A DNA stretch of 64,000 nucleotides from Romanomermis culicivorax (taxonomy: Eukaryota; Nematoda; Enoplea; Mermithida; Mermithidae): contig CAWUHX010000147.1 in NCBI GenBank assembly GCA_963922205.1, forward strand, positions 822,394 to 886,393, given 5' to 3'. Of the stretch, positions 1-64,000 are shown piece by piece (position 1 is the stretch's first letter; each line of letters starts with the position of its first letter). The position numbers and the translations under genes are program-made. The notes below the pieces were generated by a model that saw only the letters and a list, made by a program, of their open reading frames with translations, ran no database searches and was not told the origin of the DNA.

Positions 1-1030
1 GTTCTCTTTGTTGAGAACCACTTTGACAGCAGTGTGGTCAGTATGGACTATCACTTCTTGTTGAAACAAATAAGCCCTGAAGTACTTGACAAATTCGACA
101 ACTGCTAGGGCTTCTAGTTCAGTGATCGGATAATTTTTCTCAGCAGGTTTTAGCCCAGGGCTTGCAAAAGCAATGGGATGCTCAAGCATATCATCCCCAA
201 TTTGACTCAAAACAGCGCCTATACCAAGCAGAGAGGCGTCTGTTTGTAAAATGGAAGCTTTTGAGAAATCTGGATGAGCCAAAAGAGGGGCCAAAATGAG
301 GCAAGTTTTGAGTGTGTCAAAGGCTGCTTGTTGCTCTGTGCCCCAGGCGAAAGGGGTATCCTTTTTCAATAACCTTGTCAAAGGGCTGGCAAGCATAGAG
401 CAGCCCTTTATGAAATGTCGATAATACGATGGAAGACCCAAAAACGACTTGACTTCCCTAACATTAGTCGGGGCAGGAAGTTGGGAAATAGCTTCCACCT
501 TGCCAGGGTCTGGAGCTATTCCTTTCTCAGAGATTATGTGGCCCAGGTAGTGAACTTTGGTCTGCGAAAACTTACATTTTTCGAGCTTCAATTTTAAGCC
601 AGCGTTATCCATGCGGCTCAAAACGAGGTCTAGACGAGTCAACATTTCTGCATGGGTCCGTGTGAATACCAAAACATCGTCCAAATAAACAAGGCAATTC
701 GACCACTGTAACCTCGAAAGTAAAACATCCATCAAGCGTTGAAAGGTTGCAGGGGCATTGCAAAGCCCAAAAGGCAGGTAGTTGAAGTGATACTGCCCAG
801 ATGAGCAGTTGAACACCATTTTTTTCCGATCCTGGCCAGCAAGGTATGCTGTAGTATGCGTTTGTTTGATCTAAAGTCATAAAATATTGCATACCCCTCA
901 AAGCATCAAAAATATCATCAATGCGTGGATGGGGGTATGTATCCTTTTTGGTGACATTGTTCAGGCCTCGAAAATCAATGCAGAGGCGAAAACTGCCATC
1001 CTTCTTTTTAACCAGGACTGTATTTGTGCA
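1..1030 (-). pseudogene. pol: Reverse transcriptase core and RNase H of the gypsy element
   Basis: Minus-strand translation in more than one frame gives the RT palm: VKKKDG and a DFRGLN-type block near 1020-930, the motif A aspartate in TLDQTNAY near 875, LPFG near 775, and the catalytic YLDD box near 690-675. Connection and tether motifs follow, then the RNase H catalytic block TDAS near 245-235. The frame breaks near 810-830, just after motif A, so one continuous protein is not possible. The product would copy the element RNA into cDNA. The reading frame is also separated from the upstream protease/RT start by an in-frame TGA at about 1031-1033. The coding region runs off the left edge of the window. 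Confidence 0.85.
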
Positions 1031-2152
1031 TCAAGGGGAACTGCTCTTTGAGATTATCCCACTATTTTCCAGCTTTCTGATTTCTTCTTCAATCAAAGCC
1101 TTCTCTTTAGGGGCTGTTCGAAAAAAAGGTCTTTTCACTGGCGTGCTACCCTGTGTCTCAATTGAATGTTCGACAAGTGTTGTACGACCCACATCCCCAT
1201 TTGTCTTGGCGTACAAGTTTGGATATTTAGCCAGCAGATCCAAAAGAAGTTGCTTTTCAGTATCTGTAAGGTCAGAACCAGACAAATCTACAGTTTGGCT
1301 CAACCATTCTTTTATGGGTTTCTCCTTGACTGACCCATCTAGATTACCATTGTATGCTTCTTTTCTGGTTGCCATGTAACGGACCACAGAACCAATGCAC
1401 ATGTTCGGATACAGCATGACTTCTGAGTTCAAGGGGTTCATTACTGAAACCCGCAGGTTGTGGTCGATGACTGGACTCACAGTGGCAGCAAAACATACGT
1501 GTAGTTTTTCTGCCACATTTGGTTCAGGGGAGAATTGGACCATAGTCTCATTTCTATAAAGATTTGAAACAGGGACCGAAAATTCAGTCATACTTCTTGG
1601 GGTAAGAATGACCCGTTCATTTATGTAAATGCTGCCTTGGTGGCATAAGGAATGATATTTAACTCCTGTGCAGGGTACGATTTCGTTTTCCAATTTCACA
1701 TATGATTTCTCGTTGTTTATAGCCCACTGTTTGAAGCGAAACAAGAAATTTGACCCCAGCAAAAGGTCCGCAGCACAGTTTTCTTGAACGAGTGCTGTGA
1801 CCCTTTCATTGATAGCACCAACTTCAATTGTGAGATAAACTGCACCCAAAACATGAATGCTCATGTTGTTGGCAGTTATAGGGGTCATATTTGTGGGTTC
1901 AATTTTAATATCACCCAATTCATCAATGATTCGTTTGTCGACTAAGGTAAATGTAGCCCCGCAGTCTACCATAGCATTGGGGGTAAAGTTTTTGTTTACC
2001 CTAACCATAATATGGGGCATTCTTCGATTTTTGCCACTCACGTGGGTAGCATTATTCACCCATTCCATCAAAGGGGCACTAGGGGCCTGTGGATTTGGCA
2101 CCATAATGTATTTATTTTGGGTTTCCAAATTCCTCAGGCTGGCCAACTCCAA
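1031..2152 (-). pseudogene. pol: Retroelement aspartic protease plus N-terminal part of RT
   Basis: This is a 373-codon open stretch. Near residue 63 it has the retropepsin active-site pattern VDCGATFTLVD, with DCG where D-T-G or D-S-G is normal, and a later hydrophobic LLLGSNFL block equivalent to the retropepsin flap/ILG region. The last 60 residues (VEHSIETQG to ENSGIISKSSSP) are the standard start of a gypsy RT. The frame then meets TGA where RT normally continues, so this is a nonsense break. It follows the Env-like region without a recognisable gene boundary. I place the start arbitrarily at the first codon of the open stretch; the protein was probably released from a polyprotein. Confidence 0.8.
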
Positions 2153-2191
2153 GAGGGCCTGCCTAAGGGTAGAAGTAACCGGAGGAGCAAT

Positions 2192-3939
2192 TCAATTCCT
2201 CGGCTGCTCATACCTCGGCAATTGCCTGGGTCTTTTAGCACATCGAGAGACCCAGTAGCTAATATAGATAACTCCAACCACAAAAGCTTTCAGGACAGCC
2301 AAGTTTACCAACATCTGCAAGGGTCCTTTCAGCAAATTATTAAGTCCTTGGGTCATGCTTTGATGTGACCCAACAATCATGTGTTCAAGGGCTTGACCAG
2401 CCCCTGAAATGCTATTACCCATGGCTTCTCCAGACCCAGCCAGAAATTTGTACACTGCCCTGAGCGAAGGGACATTTCTGAGGTATAATTGACTAATCTT
2501 TTGACCACAAGTTCCAAATCATGGGTCCGAAACATATAGCTCTTCAAAAATGATAAGCTAGTTGAAACTGCTGCCAACTGGCCATGAAATATTGGCGGAG
2601 ATTTGAAGTTGAAGATCGAGAAGTTTCCCTGCCAAATGACTTCTAAGGGTACTTTACTGACGTGAATAGGACCCATTTCTGTTTGACAAGTTTGGTTGAT
2701 TTTGTAAGGGTGAATTGGCTGATGGTTGCAATCCACCCTTTGGCTAAAGGGTAGGAGATCCACACCTCCTGGGGAAACAAACATCAAGTCGTTTCCCAGT
2801 AAGACTGGCATGTGTTCATAGCAGGTGCCATTGACTTTATGATTCTTGTAAATTCGAGAGGCCTTCACTTGCCTGCATGGCCAAATTGTTATGGCCTCAC
2901 CTGTGAACTGGACAATAATGTCGGTTCGTTGGAGGAAGGCCCTTGCTCCTAGAGTGGGGTCTAAATGTAGAAATTGCTATACAAGATCCAAATGGCATTG
3001 GGCCGGCCTACATAGTTCACTCCACACGTTTCAAAAACTTTGCATTTCAAAATCAATCATTTTCAACGCCAAATAGTTTAGTTTGGCATTGATGGGGTCA
3101 GAATCTGTTAGATCAAATACAGGTAGAGAATTCTGACCCTCCATCTCTACAAGGGTTTGATTGATCTCAATCACAACACCTTGTTCGGTGAGTAGCCCAT
3201 TTGTGATTTTAGGGCAATTTTTGTGAGAAAAATTTGATCTTTTAACAAAAAACGCAGCTTGCAAGTCATTAATGATGATATGATGACCCGTTTGTTTCAC
3301 AATATAACTGTCTTTGTACTCAAAAAGGCATATAGATTCGAGGGTCGTTTCATTCCAAACAACCACTCCGTCTGACGCAACACAGTGGCCTGAACTGGGT
3401 TTACAGCCCCCAAGATCACCAAGGGTGCTTAGCAGATTCGAATTATCCCAGGAGGCAACTTCCCCTTCCTCAATGATTAAATTCTCAACAGAACTGCAAT
3501 GATCATTGCAACACCACTTATATTCGACACTAAGGGTATTTGCAGTTGACCAAAAGTTCGGAAGGGTCTCGTCCAAAGTTTGGCCCTTGTAAAGTTTCGA
3601 ATACCAAAAAGTTTTGCATTCAAAAGGGGTGAGTGTTGCAAGTTTCGTATCATCACCCACAATACCTTTGGAACCGAAAAATCCCGTATTTGTACAAATC
3701 GTTGGAGTTCTGATGCTACACTTGAATGCTGGAGATAGCTTAGGGTGCCCACGAGGTATGAAAAGCTCACCCATAGTTGTCAGGGGTTTCTCACCCACCA
3801 TGGGTCTAAGACACAAAACAGTTTTAGGAATTTTGATTGAGTGACCACTTTGAGAGGTTCCACAAATTTGAAGTGAAGAGACTTTATTTACGCCCATAAA
3901 AATGGTGAAAAAAATATACACGCATTTTAAAGAAAACAT
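2192..3939 (-). pseudogene. Env-like glycoprotein region lying between Gag and Pol
   Basis: An ATG at 3939 begins a hydrophobic signal-like segment (residues about 5-20) followed by a cysteine-rich ectodomain with several N-glycosylation sequons (NET, NFS, NQT, NYT). The open frame runs to 3031, continues from 2868 to 2377 after a break, and ends in another frame (2455-2192) with a hydrophobic membrane-spanning segment near residues 47-68 and a basic, proline-rich tail. A signal, glycosylated ectodomain, one C-terminal membrane segment and short tail are the layout of a membrane fusion/attachment protein. I do not recognise the fusogen class. It is in frame with the upstream Gag coding, with no stop between them. 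The copy is broken into at least three pieces. Confidence 0.6.
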
Positions 3940-3944
3940 ATGGG

Positions 3945-5241
3945 CGGTGGTGGCCTTTTCAATAGGGGCGTAGGCCCCAGTTCGGACAGTTTCCATGCAT
4001 TCTTTTCCCCTGGCCATGATTTTGGTTGTGGCCTTTTGTACGAGAAAAAAAGAACCCTGGCCCATTTTATCGACGGACCTGTTGAGGGCTTCTTGGGCTG
4101 GTGGATTGGTTTCCTTGGCCCATGTGGTTTTGGGTGGGGTTTTGACGTTTTCTTCTCCGGGCTGTCCGAGCCCACCTGCACCTTGGGCAGCAGCAATACC
4201 ACTGATTGCCGTTACACCCTGTAATGAAGAAAAAGCCCTTTCATGGGGCAGATAACTTTTTCGAGCTTCAAGCCTCTCACCAAGTCTGTCGAAGACAGGG
4301 GGCCTGTGGGATCCAGGGCGAACATTGGTTTGGCCCTTTTTCGGAATTTTATAGTCTTTGGGCAAGGTCGGTTTTTCAGCAGCTACCTGTTCGATCTCGC
4401 CCTCGTTTAACAAGCCTTCAGACATGGGATCGCTTGGTTCCGGCATTGGCGGAATGGACCCTGGCCATGCCTGATTTTCCGTCTCGTCGTTACTCCAGTT
4501 GGGGTCGTATGCTAGTGACATGACCGGACCTGTGACAGAACAATGATTTAAAGTGGTCATACCAGGGTCGTCACTATCCAGGAGTTTGATAGATAACCCA
4601 TTATTGTGATTCTGACCATACTTTTGGGGGCCATATTTTTCCAAATGCCGTTTGTGTTTACATTTCCTACATTCTATGGTAGGGCACTTATTGTGCTTAT
4701 GTTCCACTTTTTTACAAAAGCGACATTTTGATTTACACTCAGAGGCCACATGGCCTTCTCGACTACAAATAGAACATGAAGAAACCGTAGGGCAGTCAGA
4801 GGCTTTCTTGCAAGTATTAGCATAATGCGCCTTTTTCCCACATTTATAGCATGTGACACCGTGATCTGAACGCCTCTGTTTTTCATTTTTACCATGATTT
4901 TGAAGTTCATCCAAAATTTTGTCAAACTTTAGGCTCAGCTGGTCGACCTGATTTTTCAAAGGGTCCTCATGTTGGACTGCTAAAACTGGTTCCCTGACAA
5001 ACGAGGGATATGACATAGGACAGGGGACTTTGGCTTTGTCCCGCAACATTTGTCGTTCTATGAATACGGCTTCAGAAACGAGGGCAGCTAAATCAGGGTA
5101 CTGTTTGTACTTGATGACACTTTGAATATCACTCAACAGACCCTCACGGAAAACGGGTTCAATTAAATTTTCCCATGAAGCTAGTTCAAAATTAGGATAG
5201 GCGAGCCAGCCCAATTTTTTGACTTTGTTAAAGAAAGCCAT
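3945..5241 (-). pseudogene. gag: Gag: capsid C-terminal part, nucleocapsid zinc knuckles and linker
   Basis: After a capsid-like helical segment (FREGLLSDIQSVIKY to AALVSEAVFIER), the translation has three intact CX2CX4HX4C knuckles at residues of roughly 130-145, 154-167 and 172-185. A fourth has the first CX2C and H but has lost the last Cys. These bind RNA during packaging. A proline- and glycine-rich linker of about 200 residues then leads, in the same open frame, directly into the Env-like signal segment. The start at 5241 is only the first codon after an in-frame TGA. The upstream piece 5619-5254 is the N-terminal part of the same Gag. Confidence 0.85.
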
Positions 5242-5253
5242 TACTGTTTCAGT

Positions 5254-5619
5254 TCATTTTTGTTTTCGATCCCTCAAGATTTGATGATGAAACAGGGTGT
5301 CTTGAACAACAGGGAAGGCCTCCAGCAGAGCCCGTTTTAATTGATCGTACATCTCAGGAGAAGTAGGGGAGTTGGAAATATTTTCGAATTTTACCAAGGC
5401 GTCCCCATCCAAGTGGAATTCCAAAAATATAAGCTTGAGGGCATCATCATCAGCTTTGAGCCCCTTTAAAAGCATTTGTTTTTCAAGCTTCTTGGCCCAT
5501 TCTTCGAAATTTTCAGAGGGCCTACCAGTGAAATGTGGAAAATTGCGATTTTTTGTGGACATTTCGCTCCTAAGATGTCCAATTCTAAACTCATTCAGAC
5601 CGGCTTCAGTAGTGGACAC
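5254..5619 (-). pseudogene. gag: Gag N-terminal (matrix/capsid) segment
   Basis: The 121-codon segment has the retrotransposon Gag signature: a short N-terminus, then FPHFTGRPSENFEEWAKKLEKQM (the F-G-x-x-x-x-F-x-x-W pattern), and later YDQLKRALLEAF, typical of the Retrotrans_gag family. It stops at TGA near 5254. The same frame continues into the next Gag segment at 5241, so this is one gene interrupted by a nonsense codon. Structural coat of the retroelement particle. Confidence 0.8.
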
Positions 5620-5639
5620 TTTTCATGCAATTTGAGCTT

Positions 5640-6189
5640 CGAGCTCCCGCAGATGCCCATCCAAAACAGTGGCGAGAGTGTCCTGAACTACATGTCCCAA
5701 TGGGTCTATACTTTGGTTGTAATGAGGCATTTTTTTGTTAAGGGTTTGTTCCCTAGTTTCACGCTGGATGCGTTTAAAGACGTCACACAACATTTCTTTA
5801 GTTACAGTATACCGACCTGACTGTTTTGATGAAATTTTTGGAAAAGAAAAAAAAGAGATTTGACCAAGAATTATATAAATTTTTTTTGTTTGGATAAGGC
5901 TTAAAAAGTTTCTGGGTTCCCCTGTTATTAGGTCACCACGCTTATGTCAGGGTTACTGTAAGGGTTGATGTGTACCTAAGCAAGTTGGGTTTTTGACTTT
6001 ACTAATTTACAACTTACAACCTTCATACAAACGTTGGTTCGACACGAAATGTAAAATGGGTGCAAAAACGCAAACGTAAAACTCGGCACAAAAATGCACA
6101 AATGAAATAATGGTCAAGTCGCGGGACGATTCTCGTAAGGCAAAATTACTGACAGAATCCAGCAGGGGATTCAACTGCTGAGGTCGACG
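5640..6189 (-). other. Leader/5' side of the retroelement, no gene seen
   Basis: About 550 bases with no credible coding. It should hold the untranslated leader and the end of the 5' LTR of the minus-strand element. I could not identify LTR borders or a convincing primer-binding site. The hAT insertion begins at its right edge. Confidence 0.4.
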
Positions 6190-56249: not shown

Positions 56250-58380
56250 ATAAATCTGAAAAGTATGTAGTTTAAGAAAAACAATCATTTGATTCAATAA
56301 TGATTTTTCTAATTCATTTAATTCAAAGTTGATGCCACAAGTAGCTGTTGAACAAGATTAAATTCAATGAGAAGATAAAAATCTTGCAAAGAAAGTATTT
56401 TTTGTATTGTTTGGTAGTCAATATTCACTCATTTATAGAGTTGACAGAAAATCAGAATATATATCAAGAATGTGAAAAAATGATGAATACCTGATCATTG
56501 ATGATATTTCTGTGTACTGATTCTCATGATTTTTTTATTGAATGAGTGTTGTGATATACCTTCATTTCTCTCTGATACAATAATGCAAACTTTTAATTCA
56601 AAATGCTATATCAGAAGCCCCAAAAATTTCTTTTCCAAGTTTGTGGAATGCTGGTAAATTTTTTTCCATTTTCTGAAAAAAATCACCGCAGCTTCAGGTT
56701 CGACAGGCAGGTTATTCTGACTACTATTTGTGGAGCACTTGTTTTTTGATCTTTAGGTCAGTGGCCATCCTCATCGCTTCCACTCAATAAAAATTTATAA
56801 GGTGAGTATTGATGGATGATACCATGGGAGCTCCTATGGAAAAGAAGGAAAAGTTACCATAAATCCTAAATTTGAAAGCATCCAGACTTTACAGTTACAA
56901 GGTTTAATACAATTTCTATATGAAAATCTCAGCCAAAGTTTCAGTTAAAAAAATGTACCTAGGTTCCACCATTTCATGCTTTGACTAACATGACACATTT
57001 CATGGCTCTATGAAACAAACGTGTATATGTTGCTGGGAGCATTCACAGGTGATTCATGAACCAAGTTTTCTGTGAAGTTTGAATTAAGATTTCAAAATGA
57101 GTGAACATCTTTGCACCTATATTAGCTAATAATAAAAATTGAGTTTGTAGCAAACAGGCTGCTTTCTTTGGCTGTAATCAATGTTGTCTACATGATAACA
57201 TCCTTATTGACTTCATTTTGTAAGCACATAAATCAGTTACAGGTGAGCTAGAATCAAATTTTGTTATTGTAACTGTAGTAACTCACAAACTTATGACTAA
57301 TGATTCTAAGTTTCAAAAAAAGTTCACCAATCCTATGACAGCTGGAGTAGATGATATATTCTTCATGAAAGTGAGCTGTTGCTAAATATAAGTGTTTTTA
57401 AGGTGAGAAAAATTACACATTAAAGAACTGACAGTCTATGCCCCAGCAGTGACAGGGACAGGTGAGTGGCCAATGTGGCTTCACAGGTGCATTACTAATG
57501 ATGGTTTTATTTTTTGGTTTGTCTTTACCTCCTCTCAAACACATAGGTCAAAAAGGTAATTGATCCCTTTATGACAAAAGATGACGTCAAAAGAATACTG
57601 AAAGACTCTGCTTATGATTTTATGTGAGACAACAGAATATTAAAAAATTATGCTAAGGTTGGTGGTGAGCAAAACAGAGAAGAATCAGAAAAATGACAAA
57701 CAGCCAGAATATGAGAATATGGGCGAAGAAAATGAATCACATCACAAAGAAAGTTCTGACGTCTTAGTTATTAGGTGGTCAAATAGAAAGAAGAGCCAGA
57801 ATGGCTAAAAATGATGAATATTATTGATTCATAAAATTCAAATTTGCTTTTGAATTTATTTGATTGATAAAATCATAATCATGTTGTTTTGAAAGTGATG
57901 GTTTCTAAATAATAAGTCTTTTCATGGTTTCATATTACGACACTAGTCTCAAAATATAGCTAATGTAAACAGAATACTTCATATTAAACTCCATGAAAAA
58001 AATTTGATGCTTATAACTGTGACTACTATGAATCAGCTTCCAGTGCCTTTTCATTGGTTGATATGGAACTGAATGCCGGTTGATTTAGTTTATTATATTC
58101 CTGTTTTCCTACCTTACCCAACCTTATTCTCTACTCCATCTTCTACTATTCATTTATGTGATATTTGAAATAATCCATAGAGAATCAGAAAGTGTCCAGT
58201 ACTTCTTTTGTCAGGTAGAGGCACCCATGCAGTCTGCCCATATCACTACAGATTTCAGCTAGGGAGTCTGGTTCTTCTATGAACAAAATGGTATCATAGG
58301 TGTTAAAATTGATTACTTATTCAGCTGAAAAATCTTATGCAACAAGGCTTGGTGGAATGAACTTGGTTCTACTGAAGTAG
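56250..58380. other. No recognised gene
   Basis: AT-rich flank between the relic and the Polinton. Only short chance frames. Confidence 0.4.
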
Positions 58381-58384
58381 TAGT

Positions 58385-59030
58385 ATAGAGAGACCCCCCC
58401 CCCTCAAGCGCAAAAAGCTCCCCGGCCCATGCAAAAGATAGGCGTTGGACTTAGAAAAAAAATCACAACCTCCCCGACACACAAAACATAGCCGACCTTC
58501 CGCCGATTATTATGACGTCATTTTTCCGGCTGGAAAAAAGCATGACGTCACACCTAGGCTAGAAAGAAAAAAAGTTGCCGAAACTTGGCCCACCCACATC
58601 TCCGTCAAAACTCGAAATAATGTAACATATATGGTACTTTTCGGAATCAGCTCAATGAGATCTATCGATTGGTACCCAACATGACCCATTTAGGACGAAA
58701 GCCTAAATTAAGTGCGGGACTCTACTGTTTGTGCTCTTATTTATTACACACCGCTGCCGCCCACTGCTGCCACCGCCGCCGCCGCGCCTGTTGGGGGGAG
58801 GGAAGTTCGCCTAGCTAATAAAGCTGAAGCTGCCGCTTCAAGCTTTATATAGCTAGCCTAAATGGAATAGACAATCGATATGAGCAATAAATGATGTGAT
58901 ATATCAACAGAAATTGTGTACTCATTCGCACTGATCACAGGCGCCATTCACACTGATCACCAGCGCCAGCCGCGGGGAGGCTAGTACAAGTGTGGCGCCA
59001 GTACTTTCATAGAAAGTACCCATAATAAAT
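58385..59030. repeat. Probable terminal repeat region of the Polinton
   Basis: GC-rich, CpG-containing 640 bp between AT-rich flank and the last gene, beginning near 'agtatagagagaccccccc' (Polinton ends begin with AG). It includes a (cgc/gcc) run at 58750-58790, a 50-nt hairpin at 58809-58858 and a direct repeat 'cactgatcac..gcgcc' at 58928-58967. Only the distal copy could confirm that it is a terminal inverted repeat. Confidence 0.45.
58809..58858. terminator. Strong hairpin downstream of the virion gene cluster
   Basis: Arms gcctagctaataaagctgaagc and gcttcaagctttatatagctagcc around a tgcc loop. It includes AATAAA at 58818, on the plus strand. It may act as transcription/3'-end boundary or be part of the terminal repeat. 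Confidence 0.4.
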
Positions 59031-59036
59031 GTTGTT

Positions 59037-59216
59037 TTACTTTTTTCTAGTATAGTTGTGATCCCAGGTCGATTCTTTCTTCATCAGCCTTTTCATTCTT
59101 TTAATTGGTGAAGGATCAGCACCCAATTCTCTATATCTTCCAGCTTGAACATATCTACACACAGCATAATGCACAGAATGCATAGGAATTTTCCCACATA
59201 AGTTGCAAGGCTCCAT
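59037..59216 (-). CDS. Small zinc-binding basic protein
   Basis: 59 residues from ATG 59216. The N-terminus has CNLCGKIPMHSVHYAVC, a C-x2-C...H...H...C cluster able to bind one zinc, followed by a basic tail (KRMKRLMKK...HNYTRKK). A TATAAATAT box lies 43 nt upstream, so it is its own transcription unit, the last before the element end. The open frame upstream to 59237 uses GTG and is less likely. Perhaps a DNA/RNA-binding regulator; no family recognised. Confidence 0.65.
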   Translation of the reverse strand: MEPCNLCGKIPMHSVHYAVCRYVQAGRYRELGADPSPIKRMKRLMKKESTWDHNYTRKK

Positions 59217-59250
59217 TTTAGAGAATGAATGTTTCACCTATTGACTTGAT

Positions 59251-59261
59251 ATATTTATACC
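59251..59261 (-). promoter_or_regulatory. TATA box of the zinc-protein gene
   Basis: GGTATAAATAT on the minus strand, 43 nt before the ATG at 59216. A variant of the motif shared by the other units (lacks AAGTTG). Confidence 0.6.
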
Positions 59262-59302
59262 AGTGGGTAGTACTGTAACTGAATCATACTAGTTCTTACT
59301 CA

Positions 59303-59821
59303 TCAACTTTGAAAACTGACAAGTAACTCTTTGAAGTTCTTCTGCAGTTCACCGTAGGTCTTGGCACCCGTGATAATAATTTTACCTTTGTGAAAAATCA
59401 ATGCACATAAGCCCTGCTTGTTAATTGTATATTTCAGTGCAGGAAATAATTCAGGAGAATAATCACACTGACCCCTATGAGTGTTATAGAATTCCTCAAC
59501 ATTGATACAGTGATCTAGGGCGTATGACCCAACAACATTGCACATTCTAAATTTCCTGGGTCTTGGTCGATAGCCGAGTTTGAGCAGTATTTCTGCAGCA
59601 TAATCTATACTTTTCACAGCCTGCTGAGTTGCCTTAATGCCCACACATATGAGCTTGCCATTTTCATACAATAGTAGACAACATTTTGGATCATTAAGAT
59701 GCCAAATTAGCGACCGAAATTTTCCCATTGTCAGTTTAGAGCCATCCAATTTTTTAGCAAGTGAGTCTAAATTGAGTCGACAGCCAAGTTCAGCTGTGAC
59801 AGTAATGTTTTGTACCTGCAT
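59303..59821 (-). CDS. TATA-box-binding protein (TBP) homologue
   Basis: 172 residues, exactly a TBP core with both direct repeats. Repeat 1: NITVTAELGCRLNLDSLAKKL, GKFRSLIWHLNDPK, LYENGKLICVGIKA and the helix AVKSIDYAAEILLKLGY. Repeat 2: FRMCNVVGSY, EFYNTHRG, YSPELFPALKY and LIFHKGKIIITGAKT. Of the four DNA-kinking phenylalanines, F35, F126 and F143 are present and the fourth is Y52. No N-terminal extension. It starts at ATG 59821, 2 nt after the penton stop, so both share one transcript from the TATA at 60645. It should bind TATA DNA in the nucleus and recruit TFIIB-type factors. Open and undamaged. Diverged well beyond a host TBP copy, and intronless. Confidence 0.9.
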   Translation of the reverse strand: MQVQNITVTAELGCRLNLDSLAKKLDGSKLTMGKFRSLIWHLNDPKCCLLLYENGKLICVGIKATQQAVKSIDYAAEILLKLGYRPRPRKFRMCNVVGSYALDHCINVEEFYNTHRGQCDYSPELFPALKYTINKQGLCALIFHKGKIIITGAKTYGELQKNFKELLVSFQS

Positions 59822-59823
59822 TT

Positions 59824-60606
59824 TTAGAATAAACTTCGCTTTCTAAAGTGTAACTTCACAATTGTTTTACCAGTGACAAATTTTATAGGTTTGTCTTGAT
59901 CTGTTCTAATTGAAATTTCGATAGAATCGATATCTTTTACGAGTACAGGCAAGTAGTGAGGAGCTATATATATCTTATCTATAATGTCACCAAAAGCTCC
60001 CTCTATATTAACAATACGGAGGAGGGGGGCTAAAATATCACCAGCAATCTGTTGTTCAATGATGTTACAATAAACATACATAGTTTCGAGACCAGCCTTC
60101 ATATCAGCAGGGTGTGCAGCAGCAATTTTCAATTTTTCAGATGAAGTTGTTTCTAGTTGTGATTTCTCAAAGCCCAACAGGTAGGGTGAAGGATCACTTA
60201 ATTTTATGCTCTTGATTCTAGTCAAGTTCACTTTCAGGACAACTGCTCTGGCTAATCTCCTGTATGAAAATTCGATAAACTCATTATATGGAACTTTTTC
60301 CTGTTCACTCAACAACCTGATGGATTGTTGAATAGCTTCAATTAAATCTATTATAGATTCATACCTTGTAGAAGGTACTTTTAGTAATTGCCTAGTATTG
60401 GTCTGAAGATCATAAAATTTTATTACACTATCACTAGGTGTTATATTGAACCATGTATTTGGGTAGATGAATTCACAAAGTGCACATTCCCATTCACCTT
60501 GCAAAATCAATCTATGAGGCAACCTGATACTAAAATTTGAAGCGGAGTTACTCGAATCACTCTGAGCATTGCTCGGTAATGTTACATAAAACTGTGAAAA
60601 ATCCAT
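59824..60606 (-). CDS. Penton-like minor capsid protein
   Basis: 260 residues from ATG 60606, open and intact. The N-terminus (MDFSQFYVTLPSNAQSDSSN, then FSIRLPHRLILQGEWECALCEFIYPNTWFNI) is the conserved opening of the penton/minor capsid proteins of Polintons and adintoviruses. The rest is beta-rich, consistent with a single jelly roll. It would form the vertices of the icosahedral particle beside the double-jelly-roll major capsid protein. Preceded by AATATAAAAGTTAG 39 nt upstream and followed 2 nt later by the TBP homologue. Confidence 0.8.
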   Translation of the reverse strand: MDFSQFYVTLPSNAQSDSSNSASNFSIRLPHRLILQGEWECALCEFIYPNTWFNITPSDSVIKFYDLQTNTRQLLKVPSTRYESIIDLIEAIQQSIRLLSEQEKVPYNEFIEFSYRRLARAVVLKVNLTRIKSIKLSDPSPYLLGFEKSQLETTSSEKLKIAAAHPADMKAGLETMYVYCNIIEQQIAGDILAPLLRIVNIEGAFGDIIDKIYIAPHYLPVLVKDIDSIEISIRTDQDKPIKFVTGKTIVKLHFRKRSLF

Positions 60607-60633
60607 TTTTTCAATATGTCATTATGGTAGAAA

Positions 60634-60647
60634 CTAACTTTTATATT
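60634..60647 (-). promoter_or_regulatory. TATAAAAGTT box of the penton-TBP unit
   Basis: AATATAAAAGTTAG on the minus strand. The first T of TATA is at 60645, 39 nt before the ATG at 60606. It overlaps the protease 3' end (stop at 60641). Confidence 0.75.
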
Positions 60648-61135
60648 CTGTTGAGCTGTTCAAATAAAAATGCATCATCATATATGGGAGTATTTGTTAT
60701 AAAGAGACTGTTGATGAAGCCAGTAACGAATTCATCAGCATAGCTTTGTTCCAAACTAGCAGCAATATCCCTCATTCTTATCCATCTGACTATCCACACG
60801 AGAAAGTATACACATAACTGACCACATGTAGCAGTCAGGTACTGTTGAACACATTTGGTATTCCACTTGTAAGAAGTAGATATAGTCTTGATGTAATTCC
60901 TAAGCTGTTGAGGTGGTTCCAGGCCGTAACTGTCAAAATAACAACATGCATGTTTTTTATCAACAAACAGAGCTACCCAGTGTGAACCAGGTTCATCCTG
61001 CTTGTCCAGATTTACAACCAATGCTGCGGGTACAGTGTCAAGAGGTGGTAAACAGTCTATAGGAAATACCCCATTGAAGATTTGCCTGAGAGCTTGATCT
61101 CTATTGATCAAGATGTAGATTTAAGAGGTATTCAT
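60641..61135 (-). pseudogene. Adenain-like cysteine protease (family C5), premature stop
   Basis: Counting from the open stretch at 61111, the catalytic set is GSHWVALF (H44), CYFDSYG (D60), Q90 and TCGQLC (C96), in the order and spacing of adenovirus protease. It would cleave virion precursor proteins during maturation. The natural start is the ATG at 61135, which overlaps the major-capsid stop as ATGA. Codon 5 of that frame is TAA (61123-61121), so full-length protein cannot be made from it. The rest of the frame is open. Only non-ATG or internal starts remain. Co-transcribed with the capsid gene. Confidence 0.9.
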
Positions 61136-62414
61136 GCAGTATAGTCATTAAAGACGTGTCTATTTTTATCGATCATAATCAAATTGTCAAATTCTGCATA
61201 AACAATAACTTCTATACCTGCATCAGGTATCCTATCAGCAAATGTCAATTCGATACTTGTGGAACCATATCTAATCAAGTCCCAATGTCCACTATCATCT
61301 TCGTCAGGTGTAAAATCGAAGGCAAAGTAGCACTGTCCATTTTTAAAATTAAGTCTGCTAATTCCATTCCCTTTGTTATCTTTAGCCATGTCTAGAGTTT
61401 CAAAGAGCTGATCATACGCTCGAATATATTTGTTGTTGGTGTCGCTGGAAAAGCTTGACCACCAGAGACGACCTTGACTTCACTTATACTGTAACATTTA
61501 AAATTGAATGGAGATTTTTTTATTTCTCCACGATATGCATCTGCATCGACACATGCTATAATCATCCTACGTGGCAACTGACCAGTGAATAGAGTATTCA
61601 GAGGTGTAGATTGTGTTGTACTAGCAATATGAAGATTCACCATTTGGACTCGTCTAATTGGGTACTTGACTGATGTCTTTAACATTGCTTTTTCCAGAGC
61701 CAATCCAACACTGTCCAGAACTTCAACTTTCCTGATGAAGAGTTTCATCTGGGAAACTTCCAATTTTGCATTTTCTGCATCACCAGCTGGACACAGTAAT
61801 ACAAATGGATTACTATTGCGAATCAATTCGAGTTTGAGCTCAGTATTGCTGAGTAAATATCGATCTTGCATTAGAAGATCAATATGAAGAGGAGCTGTTA
61901 TTTCAACTGTATGACCATTTTCAAACTGCTTTACCCTGTCTTTAAAACCCTGGCAATCAGCAGTATCTATTTTAGGACCAGCTTCCATAGTATACAAAGA
62001 AGACTGTAAGTGACTATTTTTAGCATCAAAACCAAAATTTAAATCAGTTTCAAAGAATGCTCTGTAGGCATACTTATCCCCACTATCATGAATAAAACGA
62101 CCATTCAGGAAGAGCTTCACTTGTCTGAAAAATGCTTTACCAATCAGATTGATAGGTGCAATTACTGGTGCAGCTCCACCAGCAGGAACAGTGTAAGTAA
62201 TTTTCAAGGTCATGTACAGATAATTTTTGCTAAGCTGAATCATGTGAGGATCTGGAGGTATACGAAATTCGTATGGACCATCATTTGTGATAGGATTTAC
62301 GGGGTTGACTTCATCCCAGTAGCCTCGTTTAATTACTACTTGTGTGGGAGGTACAGTGAAAAAGTCCAATTCAGACTTTGTACTAATACTAGAAATTGTA
62401 TCAATTAGAGCCAT
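61132..62414 (-). pseudogene. Major capsid protein (double jelly roll, F54H12.2-type), frameshifted
   Basis: The start ATG at 62414 (MALIDTISSISTKSELDFF) has the family opening and is preceded by a TATAAAAGTTG box. The frame runs to TAG at 61392, and the last 85 codons (61389-61132) continue in a shifted frame with the conserved C-terminus (GHWDLIRYG...VYAEFDNLIMIDKNRHVFNDYTA). The shift lies shortly before 61430. Total about 425 residues, normal for the Polinton/adintovirus hexon. Conserved blocks: QVVIKRGYWDEVNP, GPYEFRIPPDPHMIQLSKNYLYM and FLNGRFIHDSGDKYAYRAFFETDLNF. It would build the capsid facets. One indel separates this copy from an open gene. Confidence 0.92.
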
Positions 62415-62827
62415 GTTTCCTTCTCTTTTTCTTTGAGAATATATCATTTTCTCAACTTTTATACCTTTTGGTCTAGTCCCCAAGCCTCTTCCAGTCTGCA
62501 AGGCCTCTCCCGCACTGTGGGCCAACTTGGAGAGTGCTGCTCGGCCATGTTCTTCTAGAGACTCTTCTCTTTAATAGATCGACCTTCGGCTAAATCTCCA
62601 GCAATATGTGCACCTGTAGATAGCGCTTGCTTACCAATATGGCCAGCAGCTGACTTAATAACAGGAATGGCCATTCTGAATAATGATCTAAAGAAGCTTC
62701 CTAGACCTCCTCCCCGTTGATAGGGAGTGCCTTTGAAGCCTTTGAAACCATAGCCAGTTTGTTCAGCTTGTTCAGTATAGTACTGAAGCCAAGTTGCATA
62801 ATCTTCTGGATTGAAGTATTGTCTCAT
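62415..62827 (-). pseudogene. Small virion protein p90 (GG-motif, amphipathic), frameshifted tail
   Basis: ATG 62827 opens 90 codons: an aromatic N-terminus, then YQRGGGLGSFFRSLFRMAIPVIKSAAGHIGKQALSTGAHIAGDL. The GGG followed by an amphipathic helix resembles adenovirus pVI/pX-type precursor proteins cut by adenain, and the same protein type recurs next to Polinton capsid genes. The frame ends at TAG 62555. The next frame (HGRAALSKLAHSAGEAL...GLGTRPKG) looks like its continuation, so an indel near 62565-62575 broke it. That tail frame reads into the capsid ATG without a stop. Confidence 0.7.
62453..62465 (-). promoter_or_regulatory. TATAAAAGTTG box of the capsid-protease unit
   Basis: GGTATAAAAGTTG on the minus strand, first T of TATA 49 nt before ATG 62414. 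It lies inside the coding tail of the preceding small gene. Confidence 0.75.
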
Positions 62828-62857
62828 CTTTATAAATTTACAAAATGCTGTAAATTA

Positions 62858-62869
62858 CAACTTTTATGC
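62858..62869 (-). promoter_or_regulatory. CATAAAAGTTG box of p90
   Basis: GCATAAAAGTTG on the minus strand, 41 nt before ATG 62827. One base from the TATAAAAGTTG of the other units. It overlaps the stop codon of p242. Confidence 0.65.
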
Positions 62870-63592
62870 TTTTCCAAATTCTAACCATCTAGACCTTTGT
62901 GTAATGCTTTTGGGTGCCTTAATTTTTTTACCATCTACTGGTCCACTCGGGGAAGCAAATGTTTCATCACTTTCACTTCCAACATTTAGCCTGGACTTAT
63001 TTACAAAAAGATCTCGAGGCACATTCTCCTTTAAGAGGTTCTTTACAAACAATTCTGACCCTATTGCTTGCTGGCGCCTAGGACCAACTCTCGCCACATC
63101 AGAAATCAAATCAACAATGTTGGTTCCACTTATTTTGGTGCCTTTCAGAATCATTTCTCCTTTATCTGACCACTCCATGTGTGGATTATCTTTAGCATAA
63201 TCATATAACATTTTAGCTTGACTATGCCACTTTTTTGGTACAATTTTCATAGTTTTTTCATACAGCACATCTTTTCTCGGGGTAACATCAACAGTGCTTT
63301 CAGCAGTGTCTGGCTTTTTTTGCTTCGGTGTTATTTCTTCCAGATCAGGAATAGGGTGTTCTGCAACAGATTCACTAACAGTCAACTCATAAGGTCTGGT
63401 TTGATCCTGCGTAGCCTGCCTATATCTGTGCAACACTTGATTGTATAAGATTATCTTTCTGTCGGAGGGCAATGACTTATTAGTTAAAATGTCATTCATT
63501 TCTTTATCCAAAGCAGTCATTACATTAGCTGCTATATCTTCCCTATGACCAATGTCATGCGGTACAAGAATCATTTTATTTGTATGCATCAT
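62864..63592 (-). CDS. Conserved Polinton protein p242, function unknown
   Basis: 242 residues, open. The N-terminal third is helical, the middle is acidic/proline-containing, and the conserved C-terminal half carries KTMKIVPKKWHSQAKMLYDYA, WSDKGEMILKGTKISGTNIVDLISDVAR and a basic tail. The same C-terminal block is, as I recall, encoded beside F54H12.2-type capsid genes in other animals. The start ATG at 63592 overlaps the p114 stop as ATGA. Likely a core or scaffolding component, by position only. Confidence 0.7.
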   Translation of the reverse strand: MMHTNKMILVPHDIGHREDIAANVMTALDKEMNDILTNKSLPSDRKIILYNQVLHRYRQATQDQTRPYELTVSESVAEHPIPDLEEITPKQKKPDTAESTVDVTPRKDVLYEKTMKIVPKKWHSQAKMLYDYAKDNPHMEWSDKGEMILKGTKISGTNIVDLISDVARVGPRRQQAIGSELFVKNLLKENVPRDLFVNKSRLNVGSESDETFASPSGPVDGKKIKAPKSITQRSRWLEFGKA

Positions 63593-63933
63593 CTTTTTAT
63601 AATTGCATCAGCTAGTAATTGTCCAGCTATTCCTAAGATTGGTGCCAACAATACAGGCAAAAATCCACCTTTTTGTTCTAGAATGTCTCGTCTTTTGCTG
63701 AGACTTGTTTTCTCATCTGCTAATACTCGTAAATGTCCCTTGTGGGAACTTAATTTATTCAAGGTATTTTTGTCAACTTTTATATTGCCTTCAAGGAAGT
63801 TGAGTATACATTCACACAAACAAAGTATCAGTTCAGGATCAGCGGTGCTAATAATAGCTTTACGTTGCTTGGGTTTAGCCTTAGCTAGTACCCTGATGTA
63901 ATCAATATTATGTCTAAGACGATCACAAGGCAT
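63589..63933 (-). CDS. Conserved small virion-type protein p114
   Basis: 114 residues from ATG 63933, open. Helical basic N-terminus (AKAKPKQRKAIISTADPELILCLCECILNFL), KRRDILEQKGGF, then a hydrophobic segment PVLLAPILGIAGQLLADAI and a basic end. The double glycine before a membrane-active-looking helix suggests a precursor cut by the element protease. First gene of the p114-p242 unit, with GTATAAAAGTTG 36 nt upstream. Homologous small proteins accompany adintovirus capsid genes; precise role unknown. Confidence 0.7.
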   Translation of the reverse strand: MPCDRLRHNIDYIRVLAKAKPKQRKAIISTADPELILCLCECILNFLEGNIKVDKNTLNKLSSHKGHLRVLADEKTSLSKRRDILEQKGGFLPVLLAPILGIAGQLLADAIIKR

Positions 63934-63958
63934 TTTGACTATACAACTGAAAAATAGA

Positions 63959-63970
63959 CAACTTTTATAC
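63959..63970 (-). promoter_or_regulatory. TATAAAAGTTG box of the p114-p242 unit
   Basis: GTATAAAAGTTG on the minus strand, first T of TATA at 63969, 36 nt before ATG 63933. Confidence 0.75.
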
Positions 63971-64000
63971 TTTTAGTACTCTGCGTTGATACCACTGCTT

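Follow-up and report, generated by a model that had tools for sequence, protein, structure and literature searches.

The window analysed here, a stretch of 64,000 nucleotides, carries on its right side an element that extends from about position 58379 to the last position of the window, where the contig too comes to its end. One end of the element could be placed, the contig stopping short of the other: the terminus on the side of the TATA-binding protein (TBP) gene lies at approximately 58379-58389, with AGTAGTATAGA reading inward, as judged by eye, and the ends of the BLAST matches at this terminus are scattered over 58376-58429. A search for inverted repeats in 57000-64000 returned only four short imperfect pairs. 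Positions 63975-64000 at the contig end read as what we take to be the reverse complement of a common amplification primer, so that adapter sequence was probably left untrimmed here. At the opposite edge of the window (1-5820) retrotransposon-like polymerase, protease and zinc-knuckle genes were recognized by eye from the translations.

The genes of the element lie on the minus strand, in the order three small virion genes, capsid, protease, penton-type gene, TBP and a Cys/His-rich ORF of 59 residues. The first gene (63589-63933, 114 aa) overlaps the second (62864-63592, 242 aa) by 4 nt and is followed also by a smaller one (62555-62827); all three are recognized by their conservation as members of the virion cluster. 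The major capsid protein gene (61132-62414) has a broken frame here, consisting of two overlapping ORFs, and is unbroken in some other copies. An adenain-type cysteine protease (Pfam C5; PF00770, 25.7 bits versus a cut-off of 21.3) occupies a stop-to-stop frame at 60641-61120 that has no starting ATG in this copy. The penton-type gene (59824-60606, 260 aa) has no Pfam match and is named by position and conservation only. The TBP gene (59303-59821) comes next, and beyond it the 59-residue ORF (59037-59216), which recurs in 18 fetched loci of the same element type (lineage A, below), its pieces being 54-100% identical, frameshifted stretches aside. This ORF, which is preceded 43 nt upstream by TATAAA in locus L014, matches no PHROG or Pfam family and is possibly a small zinc protein.

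The likeness of the element to Polintons/Mavericks lies in the adenain protease and in a capsid gene whose relatives weakly match the double jelly-roll family (PF21738 scores of 24-26 bits for three database proteins, short of the cut-off of 27 bits; the capsid protein of locus L011 itself has no PF21738 match, and profile A3 no PDB match), as well as in genes found in related copies. These are ATPase-like ORFs upstream in related lineage A copies (weak IVa2, FtsK and A32 matches in L035 and L031, all under cut-off), integrase-like ORFs in L035 (a chromodomain above cut-off and an rve core below cut-off, in two separate ORFs), and a family B polymerase (PF03175), which is above cut-off in lineages B and C, has BLAST kin in lineage D, and was not seen in the parts of lineage A examined. 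The segment 58376-63974 is 99.8% identical over 5.6 kb to the copy at L014 (contig C526), with different flanks, and the capsid matches of the two copies break at the same place, suggesting that a copy which was already damaged has recently moved or been duplicated. Beside the lineage A copy at L016 the opposite strand carries another capsid-gene match (233-830), a diverged one of 39-43% identity.

The plus-strand frame of 59303-59821 contains several stops, and the ORF of 172 residues that had been described there as carrying both TBP repeats is on the minus strand. The Pfam TBP profile matches it in two stretches (PF00352, E = 2.8e-37, 126.9 bits versus a cut-off of 22.9), and human TBP is its best relative of solved structure (residues 2-166, E = 2.2e-28, phmmer against PDB sequences); NCBIfam TBP models also match, with scores below the models' own cut-offs. 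The other details of the preliminary description were borne out as well: the PELFP motif is present, three of the four intercalating phenylalanines (human numbering) are kept, namely F197, F288 and F305, the fourth, F214, being a tyrosine, and 2 nt separate the stop of the penton-type gene from the start of the TBP gene on the same strand. Both saddle asparagines are also retained, and the gene is intronless. We conclude that the ORF encodes a two-repeat TBP, which is predicted to bind and bend DNA.

A single-sequence search of the protein collection with this TBP found no relatives. A search with an alignment gave 388 matches, the best 120 of which were examined; among the matches listed, the closest TBPs and capsid proteins are metagenome proteins. 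Scans of viral contigs with P0001, P0002, P0003, the alignments A1, A2 and A3, and the L011 capsid protein found no relatives, and the phage records include three haloarchaeal virus records with a TBP at 22-24% identity.

Recurrence and element types

A PF00352 profile search of the 359-Mb genome (438 candidates) yielded at least 150 scored domain matches, of which 133 of 150 are stop-free (counted by hand). These merge into at least 110 TBP-like loci, one of them the host's own gene; some may be pieces of one gene, such as two loci on contig C307 that lie some 14 kb from each other. The sequences fetched first were those of the host locus and of seven chosen TBP loci; 20 more were taken unselected (of the 110 loci ordered by contig, the final 21, minus the one on C526, already in the set). 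All 20 unselected loci stand beside Polinton genes, and 19 of them beside a penton-type gene, the exception being a fragment (L023) that adjoins another lineage C gene. The reverse search, in which 97 of 1621 capsid-gene candidates were scored, produced at least 99 matches. A TBP follows on the same strand within 6 kb downstream in 61 of the 99 matches listed, and in 44 of the 56 listed that are at least 1200 nt long, with gaps of 1016-1678 nt; the number of capsid-TBP pairs expected by chance is 0.09. The other 12 of the 56 have no TBP among the TBP matches listed. The TBP is a standing gene of the virion module in a Polinton family of this (probably animal) genome. A chance ORF was considered and rejected, given at least 110 TBP-like loci, repeatedly in the same position beside capsid or penton genes.

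The elements that bear these genes fall into at least four diverged lineages. Lineage A comprises the window type together with L011 and L028, to whose TBPs that of the window is 61% and 70% identical; its identity to the TBPs of the other lineages is 33% (B), 34% (C) and 29% (D). Lineage B (L030, L015, L021) has the gene order of lineage A, and in L015 and L030 a 176-aa gene and the family B polymerase come after the virion-cluster genes. Lineage C (L012, L024 and L034, with parts in L010 and L023) has the TBP, a 121-aa gene and the penton-type gene, with the polymerase on the other strand. In lineage D (L013) the TBP gene is divergent from a 280-aa gene and the polymerase, and lies apart from any penton gene in the stretch examined.

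The TBP copies are under purifying selection: the pooled dN/dS is 0.22 for the TBP (90 near pairs) and 0.16 for the penton-type gene (26 near pairs), calculated excluding copies with in-frame stops (2 of 18 and 3 of 13, respectively) and pairs with dS ≤0.02. Some of the change in near pairs is decay after insertion. For the window against L011 dN/dS is 0.10, but at a dS of 2.6, which is saturated.

Origin of the TBP genes

The host TBP is a separate gene on contig C95, with introns as judged from a reading of its ORFs, and it groups with the TBPs of two nematodes (support 99/95). The canonical nematode spliced leader has no exact match in the genome. Since the element TBP recurs beside capsid genes in many diverged copies, and the host has its own intron-bearing gene elsewhere, the TBP of the window is not a chance retrocopy. 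Neither of the outcomes that would have told against the preliminary description, a missing TBP match in profile searches or such a retrocopy, was thus obtained.

The Polinton TBPs form two supported clades, one of lineages A and B with the metagenome protein P0003 (98/97), the other of lineages C and D with the metagenome protein P0002 (100/99); the data do not reject a single clade for all Polinton lineages (p-AU = 0.327). Of the 120 database proteins listed, 35 and 31 were included in the trees, whose rows contain no identified giant-virus or mirusvirus TBP. Five rows (a haloarchaeal virus, P0109, P0069, P0014 and P0099) are omitted from the final tree; in an earlier tree of 44 rows P0109 joined the A/B clade on a long branch. 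P0002 and P0003 are encoded on two short environmental contigs, and their grouping with C/D and A/B, respectively, indicates that these TBP types exist outside this genome.

As to a separation from the host TBP, which the preliminary description had proposed to examine by phylogeny, the tests reject a grouping of the host and nematode TBPs with all lineages together (p-AU = 0.018) or with A/B (p-AU = 0.027), but not with C/D alone (p-AU = 0.28). These values bear on the possibility that the host TBP was recently retrocopied into a Polinton and then amplified along with the element. The intronless gene and the C/D result would be compatible with such an event; the rejected groupings, the low identity of the window TBP to those of lineages B, C and D, and the 455 of 1303 positions that match human TBP over eight representatives all speak against it. 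We regard a recent retrocopy as most improbable, the trees arguing against a recent host copy, if not decisively for the two types C and D. That the gene was captured long ago, in one event or two, from a host or from a virus of another kind (for example a giant virus or mirusvirus), has in our view an about even chance, and is compatible with the explanation that we prefer below. The two clades may represent separate captures, one common clade being also acceptable to the data; against this origin count the long branches and the composition of the trees, among whose rows there is no identified giant-virus or mirusvirus TBP.

TATA boxes and the surfaces of the TBP

In the window, TATAAAAG boxes stand on the minus strand 36 nt before the first virion gene (63962-63969), before the capsid gene (62456-62463) and before the penton/TBP pair (60638-60645), and CATAAAAG is found 41 nt before the start at 62827 (62861-62868). 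We scanned the 90 nt upstream of gene starts for TATAAAAG in all lineages, placing the starts by alignment to the window proteins. In lineages A and B the boxes stand 35-65 nt before virion-gene starts. They precede the first virion gene in 13/13 copies of A and 2/2 of B, the capsid gene in 14/14 of A, 2/2 (L011 and L028) and 2/2 of B, and the penton gene in the same numbers (14/14, 2/2 and 2/2), the aligned start in B not being an ATG. Before the gene that starts at 62827 the box occurs in 6/13 copies of A (most others having CATAAAAG), 1/1 (L011) and 3/3 of B. Within the same 90 nt there is no TATAAAAG before the overlapping gene that starts at 63592 (0/12 in A, 0/3 in B), before the lineage C penton (0/3), or before the TBP gene (0/26, all lineages combined); in the stretches of lineages C and D that were scanned the box is absent. 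Lineages B and D have a TATAAATA ahead of the TBP gene.

The coding strand of four representative modules contains 4, 3, 2 and 4 occurrences of TATAAAAG, versus means of 0.19-0.23 after shuffling; the observed counts were reached in 0, 2, 11 and 0 of 500 shuffles, respectively, and the opposite strand of these modules has none. Positions 1-58000 of the window contain five occurrences, both strands together, and one lineage A box lies inside the first virion gene. On our reading the virion cluster would consist of four units, with the TBP of lineage A as the second gene of the penton unit. The earlier suggestion that the TBP serves late genes gains support from these data: boxes do precede the virion genes of A and B, but in lineage B they are also found upstream of the 176-aa and polymerase genes (L030 4423, L015 5023), so that the box is not confined to virion genes. 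Moreover, TATAAAAG should suit an ordinary host TBP as well, and the boxes are therefore no proof of a need for the viral one.

The residues of the protein were compared in 24 Polinton or related rows, in human numbering. F288, F305 and N257 are kept in all 24 rows, and F197, E286 and L287 in 23. F214 is kept in 8 rows (Phe in B, C and D), the 16 rows of A having Tyr. Only 4 rows (C, D and P0002) retain E284, which is Ser, Thr, Val or Met in A and B, and R235 is replaced by Asp or Glu in 21 rows and by Ser in 2, with Arg in 1; the metagenome relative P0002 keeps both R231 and R235. L287 is presumably a TFIIB-side residue, and the DNA-facing positions, like part of the regulator-surface list, are putative assignments. 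PMC7221094 names R235, R239, E284 and E286, with E286 on the TFIIB side.

Over eight representatives, identity to human TBP is 120/192 at DNA-facing positions, 455/1303 at all positions and 8/79 on the regulator surface; the corresponding values for nine cellular TBPs are 210/216, 1168/1485 and 77/90. Judged from these alignments, the DNA face is better kept, and the predicted surface for TFIIA, TAF1, Mot1/BTAF1 and BRF1 is mostly lost. Fast divergence alone would likewise erode the regulator surface.

Proposed function and relation to known systems

The reading that we favour, and consider somewhat better than evenly supported, is that of a dedicated initiation factor: the element TBP would mark the TATA promoters of the element for host TFIIB and RNA polymerase II. 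In lineage A, where 2 nt separate the TBP start from the penton stop and the TBP gene lacks a separate TATAAAAG box, the protein is probably made from the penton message by reinitiation. The element TBP would then bind the TATAAAAG boxes that precede the virion genes and recruit host TFIIB and RNA polymerase II. With the surface for TFIIA, TAF1, Mot1/BTAF1 and BRF1 mostly lost, it should act apart from TFIID and from the host factors that remove TBP from DNA, while the loss of the TFIIB contact E284 in lineages A and B would weaken the TFIIB step there. DNA binding, TFIIB recruitment, reinitiation and timing are steps that we infer, as is the redirection of host Pol II put forward in the preliminary description. 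A profile search for TFIIB, in which all 8 candidates were scored and a very diverged TFIIB could be missed, yielded three genomic matches, all of them on contigs other than those of the listed TBP loci. A more specific version, in which Polintons would have a promoter-recognition system of their own, with a TBP freed from TFIID, TFIIA and Mot1 marking TATAAAAG promoters for host TFIIB and Pol II without a TFIIB of its own, is put forward tentatively, as somewhat short of an even chance. If true, a small integrating virus would possess half of a viral TBP system, coupled to the machinery of the host at the TFIIB step.

The same features of the protein can be read in other ways. Instead of serving the promoters of the element, the TBP could act as a competitor, occupying host TATA boxes or titrating TFIIB and lowering host transcription. 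The lost regulator surface could let it escape removal by host factors, and the change of E284 in lineages A and B could give a dead-end complex; yet in each of the four types seen the gene is accompanied by genes of the element itself, and the conserved TATA boxes of the A and B element genes would be hit too, so that we consider this function unlikely. The best-kept class of residues, the DNA-facing ones, and the place of the gene directly after the penton gene in lineage A would also suit a DNA-bending protein made together with the penton for packaging or for the virion, and not a transcription factor. Such a structural role appears quite unlikely in view of the TFIIB-side residues E286 and L287, each kept in 23 of 24 rows, and of lineage D, in which the TBP is away from the penton in the stretch examined and has a TATAAATA box upstream.

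As for the initiation factor that we prefer, it can be compared with viral TBPs already on record. Among viruses, TBP was known before in giant viruses, mirusviruses, poxviruses and some archaeal viruses, the majority of which come with further transcription machinery of their own. The TBPs of dsDNA viruses described in PMC7221094 have two lobes and show the same pattern as the Polinton TBP, preserving the DNA face but not the regulator signature. According to that source, TFIIB is found in almost all TBP-bearing dsDNA viruses, poxviruses excepted, and forms with TBP an orthogonal viral system; by comparison, the Polinton TBP is without a TFIIB on the listed TBP contigs. Chrysochromulina parva virus BQ1, for which PMC12085832 proposes that TBP redirects host Pol II, also differs from the Polinton in encoding two TFIIB proteins alongside its giant-virus TBP. 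UL87 of HCMV is called a viral TBP equivalent in PMC12333995, where it is needed at two tested late-type promoters and is one of six proteins acting together on TATT. The Polinton TBP resembles UL87 as a virus-coded TBP-like factor; unlike UL87, as described there, its homology to TBP is evident from the sequence, and the boxes concerned are TATAAAAG.

TBP is present in 59% of mirusvirus genomes (PMC10132985), and in an alga TBP genes were found in mirusvirus-like and not in Polinton-like elements (PMC10675990). The carrier here, unlike giant viruses and mirusviruses, is a Polinton in a eukaryote genome. In agreement with the preliminary description, which knew of no TBP as cargo of Polintons or adintoviruses, no report of a Polinton, Maverick or adintovirus with a TBP was found in searches of an open literature library, whose coverage of the key papers is incomplete. 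This family differs from known Polintons/Mavericks in that its virion module recurrently includes a TBP gene, which here belongs to small integrating elements that depend on a host nucleus. With the strong TATA signals at the shell genes next to it, this suggests that Polintons bring part of their own gene-switching machinery and hints at how they may control their virion genes; the TBP may also be used as a sequence marker for the group. A natural TBP that retains its DNA face but has shed its regulator surface, as these sequences predict, would offer a direct test of the role of that surface.
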